From Candidatus Neomarinimicrobiota bacterium (GTDB lineage: Bacteria; Fidelibacterota; SORT01), in the NCBI GenBank assembly GCA_022573815.1, contig JACZTG010000011.1, forward strand, positions 1 through 64,000: a stretch of DNA of 64,000 nucleotides, given 5' to 3'. Position 1 is the stretch's first letter. The number at the start of each line of letters is the position of its first letter. The translations under genes were made by a program, and so were the position numbers. Below, piece after piece: positions 18,660 through 61,581 of the stretch. The notes under the pieces are model-generated. The model was not told the DNA's origin and made no database searches. It saw nothing but the letters and a program-made list of their open reading frames with translations.

Positions 18660-19718
18660 TCAGTTGATTATTAATTTTAGTGGGGGCAAGTACATATATT
18701 TTAACAGAGAATCAGCTGCTGTGAAATCAAAAATATCATCGATATTTTTATCTCTTATCAAGCCGAACCTTTCAGCCTTAGCAGCCATTTTCACGAGAGA
18801 AGGTCTTACGGGGTCATAGGTAGGCACTATATTGATATAGGCTTTTTCTCCAACCACTTCTGAAATATTTTCATTTATGAGAGCTAATATCCCTTTTCTG
18901 AGGATATCCAATGTCTCATTCTTATGACTCCTGATCCAAATAGTTATTTTTATGTGACTCTCCATAAATTTGAATATCACTTCCGGGTATTGATTCAAAA
19001 AATCATTTCTTACGACAATGACAGCTGTGGAATATATTGATTTCGTCCAGAGAGAGCTCTCATTTATAAACGGGTACCCTCCCTCTTCCACAATTAATTT
19101 TGAAGCCCACGGTTCGGCAATCCATGCGCCGGTTATGAGATTACTTGAAAACGATGTGATAATTTCTGAGCGGTCAAGCGGAGTGACGCTGATTCTGTGG
19201 CTTGGATTCGAAAGGTCTAATCCGTTTGAGAGAAAATAATCTCTCAGCGCCAGGTGCTGACCGGCATTATTTTCCGGAATAGCAATAATCTTTCCTCTAA
19301 AATCTTTTATCAGATGAGGGGGTATTTCTCGCTTAGCCACAAAAATGTTTCCGCCGCTGGTTACTCCCCCGATAATACGAATCAGATTTCTGTCCGAACG
19401 ACTGTGAGCTATTATAGCAGTGAGCGGATCTACAAATACGATATCAAGCTCGCCTCTCTTTAAGTCATTTATCAGCGCGGAATTTGATAAGTAACCCCTC
19501 GGTTTAAATTCTGATCCTCTTAAATTTAATTGATACTGTTTGTTATCAATTCCTACAAATGCCTGAGCATATGTGAAATCAGGCATAAATCCCAATCTGA
19601 TCTCCACAGGCATGTTTTCTTTCCGCTTTTCACCGCAGCCTGAAAGAAACAGGAGAAATATTATAAGAGGAAAAATGAACTTAATAGTTCCCTGTTTTTG
19701 CGTTTGTCTTGAAATCAT
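18660..19718 (-). CDS. NMT1/SsuA-type substrate-binding lipoprotein, orphan
   Basis: A periplasmic binding lipoprotein of 352 aa. The start is the ATG at 19718, which has AAGGA seven bases upstream; the frame is open far beyond but runs into the divergent gene. Signal peptide with lipobox (FIFPLIIFLLFLSGC, lipidated Cys after LSG). The body matches the NMT1/SsuA/TauA family that feeds ABC importers for pyrimidine precursors, sulfonates or similar: RLGFMPDFTYAQAFVGID, RGELDIVFVDPLTAIIAH, ITGAWIAEPWASKLI. No permease or ATPase gene is adjacent, so the ligand cannot be inferred. Confidence 0.85.
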   Translation of the reverse strand: MISRQTQKQGTIKFIFPLIIFLLFLSGCGEKRKENMPVEIRLGFMPDFTYAQAFVGIDNKQYQLNLRGSEFKPRGYLSNSALINDLKRGELDIVFVDPLTAIIAHSRSDRNLIRIIGGVTSGGNIFVAKREIPPHLIKDFRGKIIAIPENNAGQHLALRDYFLSNGLDLSNPSHRISVTPLDRSEIITSFSSNLITGAWIAEPWASKLIVEEGGYPFINESSLWTKSIYSTAVIVVRNDFLNQYPEVIFKFMESHIKITIWIRSHKNETLDILRKGILALINENISEVVGEKAYINIVPTYDPVRPSLVKMAAKAERFGLIRDKNIDDIFDFTAADSLLKYMYLPPLKLIIN

Positions 19719-19782
19719 TTGCAAATCCTTCTTCACAAGATTAATATAGTGATGGAAACAATTATTCAAAGGAATAGAAATC

Positions 19783-20436
19783 ATGGGTTTTTTAAACGAA
19801 TCGGATAAGGATGTTATCAGAAGTAAATTTGAAGACCTTAAAAACAACGTAAAGATTATTAATTTTACACAGACTATCGAGTGTATGTACTGCTCGGAAA
19901 CCCGGAGTCTGCTTGAGGAGGTAACCGACCTATCTGATAAAATATCCTTGGAAGTTTTTAATTTTATAACAGACGAAAAAGAGGTCAAGCAATTCAATAT
20001 CGATAAAATCCCCGCCACTGTTATTATGGGGGATAATGACTACGGTATCAGATATTACGGAATCCCATCAGGATACGAGTTTTCCAGTCTTTTGGAAGAC
20101 ATTCATATGATTTCTTCAGGTGATTCAGGGCTTTCTCAGGATACAAAGGATTCGTTAAAAGCTCTCAAAGACCCAATGCACTTGCAGGTTTATGTAACCC
20201 CTACATGACCCCATTGCCCGGCCGCGGTGCGGCTTGCGCATCAGTTCGCAATGGAGAGCGACCTTGTTACGGCGGATATGATTGAGGCGACCGAATTCCC
20301 TCAGCTTAGTATGAAATACGGTGTAAGAGGCGTTCCTATGACCATAGTCAATGAGAAGCCCGGCATAACAGGGTCTGTTCCCGAGCCGGCATTTCTTGCT
20401 CAGGCATTAGCCGCTTTGGAAAGCAATTTGACCTAA
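19783..20436 (+). CDS. Two-thioredoxin-fold disulfide oxidoreductase (PDO/glutaredoxin-like), probable selenoprotein
   Basis: Protein of 217 aa if the in-frame TGA at 20206-20208 is read as selenocysteine. Two thioredoxin folds: the first has CxxC at residues 34-37 (TIECMYCSET) and a cis-Pro region DKIPATVIM; the second has Sec142-Pro-His-Cys145 exactly where related PDOs carry CPYC, in the context VYVTPT-U-PHCPAAVRLAHQFA, and its own cis-Pro loop RGVPMTI. Reading frame, conservation and domain layout continue unchanged across the TGA, so it is not an ordinary stop. A SECIS-like hairpin follows immediately. Likely role: thiol-disulfide or peroxide-linked redox in the cytosol (no signal peptide). 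Divergent from the lipoprotein gene; rsgA follows 46 bases on. selA/selB/selC/selD are not in this window. The alternative is a nonsense mutation giving a truncated protein. Confidence 0.88.
20206..20254 (+). promoter_or_regulatory. Selenocysteine TGA with bacterial SECIS-like element
   Basis: Directly after the TGA (20206-20208) the RNA can fold into a lower stem CCATTGC/GCAATGG (20211-20217 with 20248-20254, 7 bp, perfect). It encloses an apical hairpin GCCGC-GGT-GCGGC (20221-20225 with 20229-20233) whose three-base loop is GGU, 18-20 bases past the UGA. Bacterial SECIS elements lie within the coding region just 3' of UGA and present a G or GGU in the apical loop at about this distance for SelB. 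The shape is seen; the function is inferred. Confidence 0.75.
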
Positions 20437-47085: not shown

Positions 47086-47501
47086 AATATCCTTTCAAGG
47101 TAGATTTCCGGATCGCCTTTCGAGACGTAGATCTTCACGATGTGCTGCATCATTCCAACTACTTCTATTATTGCGAAAAAGGAAGAGTAGAACTTTTAAG
47201 GTCGGTGGACTTCCCATATAAAAAGGTAATGGAAATGGGGATAGGTTTAATGTTGGTTGAATGCAAACTTAAATTCATCGCTCCTGTCAAGTTTGATGAT
47301 ACGCTTAACATCAACATGGGAACTGACAAGATTGGAAAGTCCTCTTTCAAGATCGCATATTCAATGGAGGTGGATGGAAATATCGTCAGTGAGGGATATA
47401 CTCATCACGTATGTGTCAGCCTCGAATCAAAAAAACCTATGCGGTTACCGGAAAAATTATTGACAAATTTAAAGACTCTTCATATTCAGGAAAATGAATG
47501 A
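47082..47501 (+). CDS. YbgC/4HBT-family acyl-CoA thioesterase
   Basis: 139-aa hot-dog-fold thioesterase. The catalytic Asp region FRDVDLHDVLHHSNYFYYCE is close to the 4-hydroxybenzoyl-CoA/YbgC pattern (Asp followed by the His-Asn pair), with RVELLRSVDFPYKKVMEMGI after it. Likely hydrolyses short-chain or aromatic acyl-CoA. Bound by four-base overlaps to the protease gene and to the first dehydrogenase gene. Confidence 0.9.
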   Translation: MKYPFKVDFRIAFRDVDLHDVLHHSNYFYYCEKGRVELLRSVDFPYKKVMEMGIGLMLVECKLKFIAPVKFDDTLNINMGTDKIGKSSFKIAYSMEVDGNIVSEGYTHHVCVSLESKKPMRLPEKLLTNLKTLHIQENE

Positions 47502-48496
47502 AGTACCATATCACTCTTTTGGAAGGAGACGGAATCGGACCGGAGGTAATCGGAGCCGCGGTTAAAATTCTTGATGCTGCAGGTGTGGAAATCAAATGGG
47601 ATAAGGCATTAGCCGGTCAGGAGGCAATAGAAAAACAGGGAGAACCCGTTCCAGATGTGACTATTGACGCCATTAAAAACACCAAAGTAGCGCTCAAAGG
47701 TCCTGTTACAACTCCTGTGGGAAAAGGATTTCGCTCCGCCAACGTATCGCTCAGGCAAAAGTTGGATTTATACGCCTGTGTCAGACCGGTAGTTAATTTA
47801 CCCGGAATTAAAACCCGCTTTTCCAATGTGGATTTGGTGGTAGTTCGGGAGAATACGGAAGGTCTTTACTCGGGATTGGAACACAGTGTTGTTCCGGGAG
47901 TGGTGACCAGCCTGAAGATTATGTCTCGTAAAGCGTGCAACAGGATTGCAAGATATGCGTTCGATTACTGCCGACAGCATGGAAGAAGAAAAGTCACTTC
48001 CGTACATAAAGCTTCAGTAATGCCGAAATCCGATGGTTTATTTCTTGAGGAAGTAAGAAAGGTTTCTGAACACTATCCATTTATCGGCTATGAGGAAATC
48101 CCTATAGACACACTTGCAAAGCGGCTTGTGATGGACCCTACAGAGTTCGATGTTCTGGTGATGGGAAATCTATATGGCGACATAATCAGTGACCTCGCCA
48201 GCGGATTGGTAGGTGGATTAGGTGTAGTTCCCGGAGCAAATATCGGGAGTCAGTACGCAGTATTCGAGCCTGTCCACGGCAGCGCGCCCGATATTGCGGG
48301 AAAGGATATGTCAAATCCTCTTGCGGCAATCTTATCAACGGTTTTAATGCTTGAATACATAGGCGAAAAATCAGCGGCAGAACGGATTAAGCTCGCCGTA
48401 AATAAAGTTCTTGAAGAAGGTAAATCCATCACCAAGGATTTAGGCGGGAATGCAGGAACGATTGAGTTTACCGAAGCGATAATAGAGAATTTATGA
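47498..48496 (+). CDS. NAD-dependent isocitrate dehydrogenase-like, catalytic copy
   Basis: 332 aa of the isocitrate/isopropylmalate dehydrogenase family. The isocitrate set is complete: Ser80, Asn82, Arg86, Arg96, Arg117, Tyr124, Lys171, Asp204, Asp228 and Asp232 by alignment of motifs (FRSANVSLR, VVRENTEGLYSG, VHKASVM, NLYGDIISD). The cofactor loop VHGSAPDIAGKD has Asp265, which favours NAD over NADP. Ser173 replaces the usual Asn of HKAN. It is the closest to the alpha subunit of mitochondrial IDH3. The second copy follows with a four-base overlap. 3-Isopropylmalate as substrate is the alternative. Confidence 0.87.
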   Translation: MKYHITLLEGDGIGPEVIGAAVKILDAAGVEIKWDKALAGQEAIEKQGEPVPDVTIDAIKNTKVALKGPVTTPVGKGFRSANVSLRQKLDLYACVRPVVNLPGIKTRFSNVDLVVVRENTEGLYSGLEHSVVPGVVTSLKIMSRKACNRIARYAFDYCRQHGRRKVTSVHKASVMPKSDGLFLEEVRKVSEHYPFIGYEEIPIDTLAKRLVMDPTEFDVLVMGNLYGDIISDLASGLVGGLGVVPGANIGSQYAVFEPVHGSAPDIAGKDMSNPLAAILSTVLMLEYIGEKSAAERIKLAVNKVLEEGKSITKDLGGNAGTIEFTEAIIENL

Positions 48497-49488
48497 GTAG
48501 AACCGTCACACTGATACCCGGCGACTCTGTAGGACCGGAAATCGCAAAAGAAGTTATGAGAATCGTTGATTCTTCAGGGGCAAAAATCAAGTGGGACTGG
48601 CAGGAGTCCGGAGAAAAAACCTTAGCGACCCAAGGCACTGCCATTCCGCAGGAGCTTCTGGATTCTGTAAAACGAAATAAGGTCGCCCTGAAAGGGATTA
48701 TTAATCATATACCGAACTCCACATCCGAACTCCCGGTAATTACATTACGGAAATCGCTTGATTTATTTGCCAATTTAAGACCGTTCAGGAATTTTCCGGG
48801 AATCGGAAGCCGCTACGATGATATTGATATTGTTGTAGTCAGACAAAATACTCAGGGAGAATATTCCGGTATAGAACATAATGTTTCACCTGATATTGTT
48901 GAAATGATAAAAGTCGTTACAAAAGACGCTTCAGAGGAAATCGCTCGTTTCACTTTCGAATATGCCATGAAGAACAACAGAAAAAAGATAACTACTGTCC
49001 ATAAAGCAAACATTATGAAGTTGTCGGATGGATTATTTATGGACACCGCAAATGAAATTGCTGAAGATTATCCTGATATTGAGCATAACACGCTCATTAT
49101 TGATGCGTGTTGTATGAATCTCGTAATGAATCCGGAAAACTTTGACGTACTTCTAATGGGGAATCTTTACGGCGATATTGTATCTGATTTGATAACAGGA
49201 ATGGTAGGCGGAAACAGCGCTGTTTACGGCGTTAATATCGGGGATGGCTTACGTATATATGAAGCGATGGTAGGCGGCAGCATGGAAATAGAATCGAAAG
49301 AAAAGGCTAACCCGTTGCCATTGTTGATGGCTGCTATTGCTATGCTCAGTTACCTTGAGGAAAATGTTGCAGCTGATTCTATTCGCAAAGCAATTTCATT
49401 AAGTCTCGCTGAGGGGATTAAGCCTGAAAATTTAGGTGGTGAAGCGTCTCTGACTGAATTCGCCGACTCAATTATAAAACTTCTCTGA
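48493..49488 (+). CDS. IDH-like paralogue with degraded substrate and NAD sites, likely regulatory subunit
   Basis: 331 aa, aligning without gaps to the gene before it over at least 280 residues. Kept: Arg86, Arg96, Arg117, Tyr124, Lys171, Asp204, Asp228, Asp232. Lost: Ser80 to Leu and Asn82 to Val (isocitrate), Glu118 and Glu121 to Gln (VVRQNTQGEYSG), and the NAD loop VHGSAPD becomes MVGGSME with His260 to Val. It should bind NAD poorly. Its position, one ATGA overlap after the catalytic copy, suggests a hetero-oligomer like eukaryotic IDH3 or yeast IDH1/IDH2. This is inference; an independent enzyme with another substrate is possible. Ten bases further is the end of the convergent epimerase gene. 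Confidence 0.85.
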   Translation: MSRTVTLIPGDSVGPEIAKEVMRIVDSSGAKIKWDWQESGEKTLATQGTAIPQELLDSVKRNKVALKGIINHIPNSTSELPVITLRKSLDLFANLRPFRNFPGIGSRYDDIDIVVVRQNTQGEYSGIEHNVSPDIVEMIKVVTKDASEEIARFTFEYAMKNNRKKITTVHKANIMKLSDGLFMDTANEIAEDYPDIEHNTLIIDACCMNLVMNPENFDVLLMGNLYGDIVSDLITGMVGGNSAVYGVNIGDGLRIYEAMVGGSMEIESKEKANPLPLLMAAIAMLSYLEENVAADSIRKAISLSLAEGIKPENLGGEASLTEFADSIIKLL

Positions 49489-61171: not shown

Positions 61172-61581
61172 CTATTTAAGAAACATCATCTTTTGAGTCT
61201 TACTGAAACCGCCGGTTGTCATTCTATAGAAATAAATTCCGGATGACAGCGGTCTTCCACGATCCGTCAAACCATTGAACTGGGTGGAATGGAAACCCGC
61301 CACCAGTTCATCATCGACCAACGTGGCAACCTTTTGACCCAGGAGATTGAAAATTACAATCTTCACATTAGCGTTTTCCGGCACCTGATAATTGATTTCA
61401 GTTGTCGGATTGAACGGGTTCGGGTAGTTCGCTGAGATTGCATACGTTTCAGGTAGAACACTATTATCAACCACTCCTACAGGAGTATTATCAACAGACG
61501 TTCCAGAAAATTCCTCAGATCATCACCTTCATATTCACTCTTCTGTTTATTTGATATAAATTTTTCTGCTTGGGCTAACAT
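61172..61581 (-). pseudogene. Remnant of a type IX-secreted protein (C-terminal sorting domain)
   Basis: The frame ending at 61172 encodes a complete T9SS type A sorting domain: SANYPNPFNPTTEINYQVP, VKIVIFNLLGQKVATLVDDE, SSGIYFYRMTTGGFSKTQKM, ending MMFLK. In-frame it is open only back to about 61520, where two stops (TGATGA) occur. In another frame an ATG at 61581 opens MLAQAEKFISNKQKSEYEGD before a stop near 61485. No signal peptide is present anywhere, so the piece cannot be exported. I read it as the 3' end of a larger surface-protein gene that has been cut and frameshifted. A GTG at 61474 could still give a 100-aa product. Confidence 0.65.

Follow-up and report, generated by a model that had tools for sequence, protein, structure and literature searches.

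We have identified, in a 64,000-nucleotide stretch of a Candidatus Neomarinimicrobiota genome (hereafter, the window), a gene for a protein disulfide oxidoreductase (PDO) with two thioredoxin domains; the first domain carries a CMYC active site and the second a UPHC site, in which the UGA at 20206 is, with strong confidence, read as selenocysteine (Sec). At the level of sequence, the recoding signal, the machinery for Sec and the conservation are all supported.

Gene, family and predicted fold

The gene begins with ATG at 19783 and is interrupted in frame only once, by the TGA at 20206-20208, from which 75 codons lead to the TAA stop; besides this TGA, the frame contains neither a further stop nor a frameshift. 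These coordinates are exactly those proposed in the first-pass annotation of the window, and the features of the gene are as follows.

19768..19773, + strand: Shine-Dalgarno-like AAAGGA, 9 bases 5' of the ATG, recognized from sequence
19783..20436, + strand: Sec-PDO gene, 217 codons plus the TAA stop (20434-20436), encoding two thioredoxin-like domains when translated with TGA as U
19882..19893, + strand: first active site, C34-M-Y-C37 (TGT ATG TAC TGC), both Cys invariant in an alignment of 19 proteins
20206..20208, + strand: TGA very probably recoded as Sec142, opening the second active site UPHC and aligned with the invariant Cys of homologues
20215..20217, + strand: Cys145, predicted resolving Cys of UPHC, invariant in the alignment
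20215..20240, + strand: predicted bacterial SECIS hairpin inside the coding sequence, fold -13.3 kcal/mol; upper stem 20220-20225 with 20229-20234, apical loop GGU 20226-20228, lower stem 20215-20218 with 20236-20240

With the standard table 11, as had been anticipated, the gene is split into 19783-20208 (141 aa) and 20227-20436 (69 aa, with a GTG start inside the gene); routine gene calling would cut the Sec-PDO gene into two wrong ORFs. The fact that a standard gene caller ends at the TGA, together with the complete CxxC in the first piece, might be taken to mean that the TGA is a true stop, which either marks a decayed pseudogene or terminates a functional 141-residue protein before the second site. 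The part after the TGA, however, lies within the best-matching domain of the protein, PF13192, which is hit with an E value of 2e-5 by the pre-TGA piece, 3.2e-13 by the post-TGA piece alone and 1.4e-24 by the whole protein read through. Both the frame and the homology thus run for 75 residues past the TGA, as claimed from the first inspection, and the absence of any other stop or frameshift also speaks against a stop; together with the conservation described below, we consider a true stop very unlikely.

When read through, the protein matches NCBIfam TIGR02187 (protein disulfide oxidoreductase), the short name of which is already "PDO_seleno_TRX", with 283.6 bits (cut-off 185; model 2-208 of 209; E 7e-85), and the sequence match identifies the gene as a TIGR02187 PDO with a predicted redox activity. 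Among proteins of solved structure, those matching best in sequence come from Pyrococcus horikoshii and P. furiosus (PDOs 1J08 and 1A8L), and the TGA codon falls on the first Cys of CPYC in both; this agrees with the initial assignment of the TGA to the first Cys of a second CxxC. Both Cys of the first site (CMYC) are retained in the window protein. In an AlphaFold2 model, which was built from a 19-row alignment with Cys in place of Sec (mean pLDDT 94, pTM 0.91), the protein is composed of two thioredoxin folds, and the sites 34-37 and 142-145 open the helices 35-48 and 145-158, respectively. Both C34 and residue 142 are placed at strand-to-helix turns of the model, the usual position of the thioredoxin nucleophile.

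The PDB structures nearest to the model are the archaeal and Aquifex PDOs (1J08, 1A8L, 2YWM, 2AYT, and 2HLS; TM-score 0.91-0.94), which have two thioredoxin folds like the window protein and match it in sequence with E values of 1e-50 to 4e-29. In 1A8L and 1J08, both CxxC sites are placed as in the window protein, but these two proteins, which were aligned in full, have Cys where the window protein would have Sec. The N-terminal domain of AhpF is also a homologous double thioredoxin fold (5H29, TM 0.87 to the model). AhpF is nonetheless a fused flavoprotein in which CxxC is retained by just one of the two thioredoxin folds, whereas the window protein stands alone with both sites present.

As for the surroundings of the gene, no conserved neighbourhood was found in ten homologous loci beyond a divergent lipoprotein gene and lon, both shared with the genome G001. 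The lipoprotein gene beside Sec-PDO (18660-19718, - strand) encodes an SsuA-like substrate-binding protein (96.9 bits, below the cut-off of 163.5), and apparently the same gene occupies the same divergent position in G001. A search of plasmid records gave only matches with less than 60% identity, many of which are annotated as AhpF. Elsewhere in the window, a 100-residue ORF (61172-61474, - strand) consists almost only of a "NYPNPFNP" type C-terminal sorting domain with no obvious cargo in the same frame, and two overlapping genes at 47498-49488 (+ strand), both starting like isocitrate/isopropylmalate dehydrogenases, are perhaps a tandem duplication. Other read-through candidates in the window were rejected, as they looked like chance or adjoining genes.

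Predicted SECIS hairpin and selenocysteine machinery

Downstream of the UGA, we found the two-part hairpin that had been noted in the first-pass annotation, its GGU loop occupying bases 18-20 past the UGA: GGCCGC-GGU-GCGGCU is extended by a lower stem of 4 bp, and the minimum free energy (MFE) is -13.3 kcal/mol over 39-45 nt. Bacterial SECIS (bSECIS) elements have been described by a loop of 3-9 nt, an upper stem of 4-16 bp, a G in the first two loop positions, a spacing of 16-37 nt and an MFE of -7.5 kcal/mol or lower (PMC13188914 Fig. 2). The hairpin is within all of these published limits, as expected from the first inspection; namely, it has a loop of 3 nt (GGU), a stem of 6 bp, a spacing of 17 nt and -9.3 kcal/mol for the upper stem alone. 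A scan of 20100-20400 against Rfam matched no family, which is expected because bSECIS elements do not form one sequence family.

A simplified bSECIS test was passed by 10 of 15 Sec forms of the gene and by 4 of 52 non-Sec homologues, while in the window, on both strands, 37 of 2681 TGA trinucleotides passed (1.4%) and only 4 (0.15%) had a hairpin as good at such a short spacing. The remaining 5/15 Sec forms lie above -7.5 kcal/mol in this test, which requires an unbroken stem without bulges; one of them reaches -7.3. Furthermore, 2% of synonymous recodings drawn for the window gene fold as strongly as the observed hairpin (p=0.020), and the mean synonymous z is -1.84 in Sec forms versus -0.04 in non-Sec forms. 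Because synonymous recodings give weaker folds, the hairpin is not explained by the protein sequence. Hairpins are also stronger in Sec than in Cys forms (Mann-Whitney p 4e-8), although this p value is overstated since related sequences are not independent.

Among the Sec forms, the hairpin occurs in two registers shifted by one base; a strict column-wise analysis of covariation over all Sec forms was dropped for this reason, and the registers were counted separately. In the register of the G059 type (G059, G217, G218, and three genes from the search of the Acidobacteriota phylum), both partners of two base pairs have changed with the pairing preserved, and the covariation score was reached by 9 of 500 shuffles, which is indicative given the relatedness of the sequences. 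The window's own register shows little variation and weak covariation, with 70/500 shuffles as good.

The assembly containing the window (2.39 Mb, 65 contigs, 96% complete) encodes the whole set that had been proposed as a check, i.e., selA, selB, selD and tRNA-Sec; the absence of selB and selC, which would have spoken against Sec, was not found. The tRNA-Sec scores 64.5 bits, over the Rfam cut-off, and is also called by ARAGORN as tRNA-SeC with the anticodon tca. SelB is full-length (C1:51076; 358.6 bits, 1-578 of 581), with SelA directly before it (C1:49682; 545 bits), and SelD, found at C21:1186 (358 bits), is interrupted in frame by a TGA within STSGGUACKLSP. SelD (L020, G000:C21:1186-2109) thus appears to be a selenoprotein itself, and a SECIS-like hairpin with a GGA loop follows its UGA at 17 nt. 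Across genomes, selA and tRNA-Sec over the cut-off were present in all seven Sec-form genomes tested out of 15 (the window's included), and the genomes with no detected selA (G007, G018, G042, G008, G030, and G229) all have the Cys form.

A UGA decoded as another amino acid, through a reassigned code (Trp, Gly, or Cys) or plain read-through, is highly improbable in light of these results. The genome has a tRNA-Sec, a SECIS-type hairpin lies downstream, and homologues have an invariant Cys at the site; also, TGA ends 22 of the 58 largely non-overlapping ORFs predicted in the window and is therefore an ordinary stop with no genome-wide reassignment.

Outside the window, the same genome encodes another candidate selenoprotein (L114:1094-3133, - strand; G000:C51:3593-5632, - strand), which consists of LVIVD repeats, an Ig-like (ASH) domain, an AhpC-TSA/redoxin domain and a T9SS-type C-terminal sorting domain; because of this last domain, the protein is putatively secreted or surface-bound. 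Its TGA sits in ASWUPVCGP of the AhpC-TSA/redoxin domain and is followed by a hairpin that passes the bSECIS test (loop AGUUG, 16 nt, stem -7.8, fold -14.0). In a search of 61 relatives, all eight long homologues, itself included, have TGA at this codon and none has Cys; the others are 28-76% identical, with strong conservation of the hairpin region. In the literature searched, we found no report naming both "LVIVD" and "selenoprotein", and this LVIVD-redoxin protein would be a more unusual selenoprotein candidate than Sec-PDO.

Sec and Cys forms among relatives

Homologues were searched in 61 related genomes, 245 genomes of the phylum and 396 genomes of the phylum to which one Acidobacteriota record belongs, many of which are metagenome assemblies, and also by a scan of GTDB contigs. 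Among 67 distinct aligned homologues, TGA is present at exactly the same codon in 15 (the window included), TGC or TGT in 51, and TTC in one divergent copy; the alignment with Cys homologues that had been suggested as a check therefore places Cys exactly at the TGA. The closest homologue, which belongs to another genus of the same family, shows 78% protein identity and also has TGA.

The region after the TGA is conserved as well. Between the window gene and this closest homologue, that of G001, the differences in the 75 codons that follow the TGA number 15, 4, and 41 in codon positions 1, 2, and 3 (dN 0.13, dS saturated), and those in the codons before it 21, 11, and 83 (dN 0.14). Given that the pattern of differences and dN are alike before and after the TGA, both halves appear to be under the same constraint, and the comparison indicates that purifying selection acts on the gene beyond the TGA. 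Such conservation, with mostly third-position changes and the invariant residues kept, is not expected after a true stop, and neither is the fact that 15 homologues retain the TGA in this place. An error of sequencing or assembly, in which a Cys codon one base away (TGC or TGT) was misread as TGA, is extremely unlikely because 14 further distinct genes in other assemblies, including the 78%-identical one from another genus, carry the same TGA, and the hairpin is specific to the TGA forms; the refuting result named at the outset, close relatives with TGC/TGT plus evidence of an error in reads, was not found.

With UGA read as Sec in these homologues, the Sec/Cys label requires at least seven changes by parsimony on a quick tree with the trait column masked, three of which are forced by well-supported branches; from this tree, at least three switches between Sec and Cys are deduced in the PDO homologues. 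For example, G219 (L056) has the Cys form, whereas the other three members of its genus examined (G217, G218, and G059) have the Sec form. G219 retains tRNA-Sec, selA and a SECIS-like hairpin, and looks like a case of recent Sec-to-Cys change; it resembles the recent Sec-to-Cys changes with remnant SECIS that have been described previously (PMC1794560).

Place in a predicted family and possible function

Zhang and colleagues listed the family in 2006 under the name "homolog of AhpF, amino-terminal domain" and gave it two selenoprotein members (PMC1794560), and the members listed are from Carboxydothermus hydrogenoformans and Symbiobacterium thermophilum (e.g., ABB15282.1; PMC1794560, PMC9312934, PMC13188914). 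Reviews in 2022 and 2026 list it under TIGR02187 with the motif UxxC (PMC9312934, PMC13188914), the latter counting it among the predictions of high confidence, and it was extended in 2024 to Asgard archaea with four sequences (PMC11227280). The window gene shares with the known bacterial members, as they are described, the family model, the UxxC motif and the existence of Cys homologues, and with the Asgard Sec forms, which are archaeal, it is likened by the family name alone (PMC11227280). We hence regard the window gene as almost certainly a new member of a family predicted since 2006. Compared with the known members, the set to which it belongs represents a new lineage, and what our comparisons add is this member, the Sec-form set in this phylum and Acidobacteriota, and the minimum of three switches noted above. 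No biochemical study of this AhpF-N-terminal/TIGR02187 selenoprotein family was found in the literature searched.

For the synthesis of the protein, we propose that SelD would make selenophosphate, SelA would convert Ser-tRNA to Sec-tRNA, and SelB carrying the Sec-tRNA would dock on the hairpin, the loop of which lies 17 nt past the UGA, so that Sec would be inserted at the UGA of position 20206. By the chemistry of thioredoxin-fold selenoproteins, Sec142 would then attack a substrate disulfide or peroxide, and Cys145 would resolve the intermediate to a selenenylsulfide. Electrons may come, perhaps via the first site, from the only clear thioredoxin reductase that the genome encodes, which has no TGA (C3:29218; TIGR01292, 417.7 bits). 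Several peroxiredoxin-type proteins are also encoded in the genome as possible partners of Sec-PDO, and our guess is that protein disulfides and peroxiredoxins would be the substrates. Alternatively, Sec at the second site might change the function, for example to a direct reductase of peroxides or selenium compounds, and the Cys and Sec forms would then be different enzymes; we regard this as rather unlikely.

In conclusion, a recoded gene that is split by table-11 calling was spotted from the raw sequence alone and is considered to be real. Also, G217, G218, and G059 with Sec and G219 with Cys would offer a natural pair within one genus to gauge how Sec affects an oxidoreductase with two active sites.
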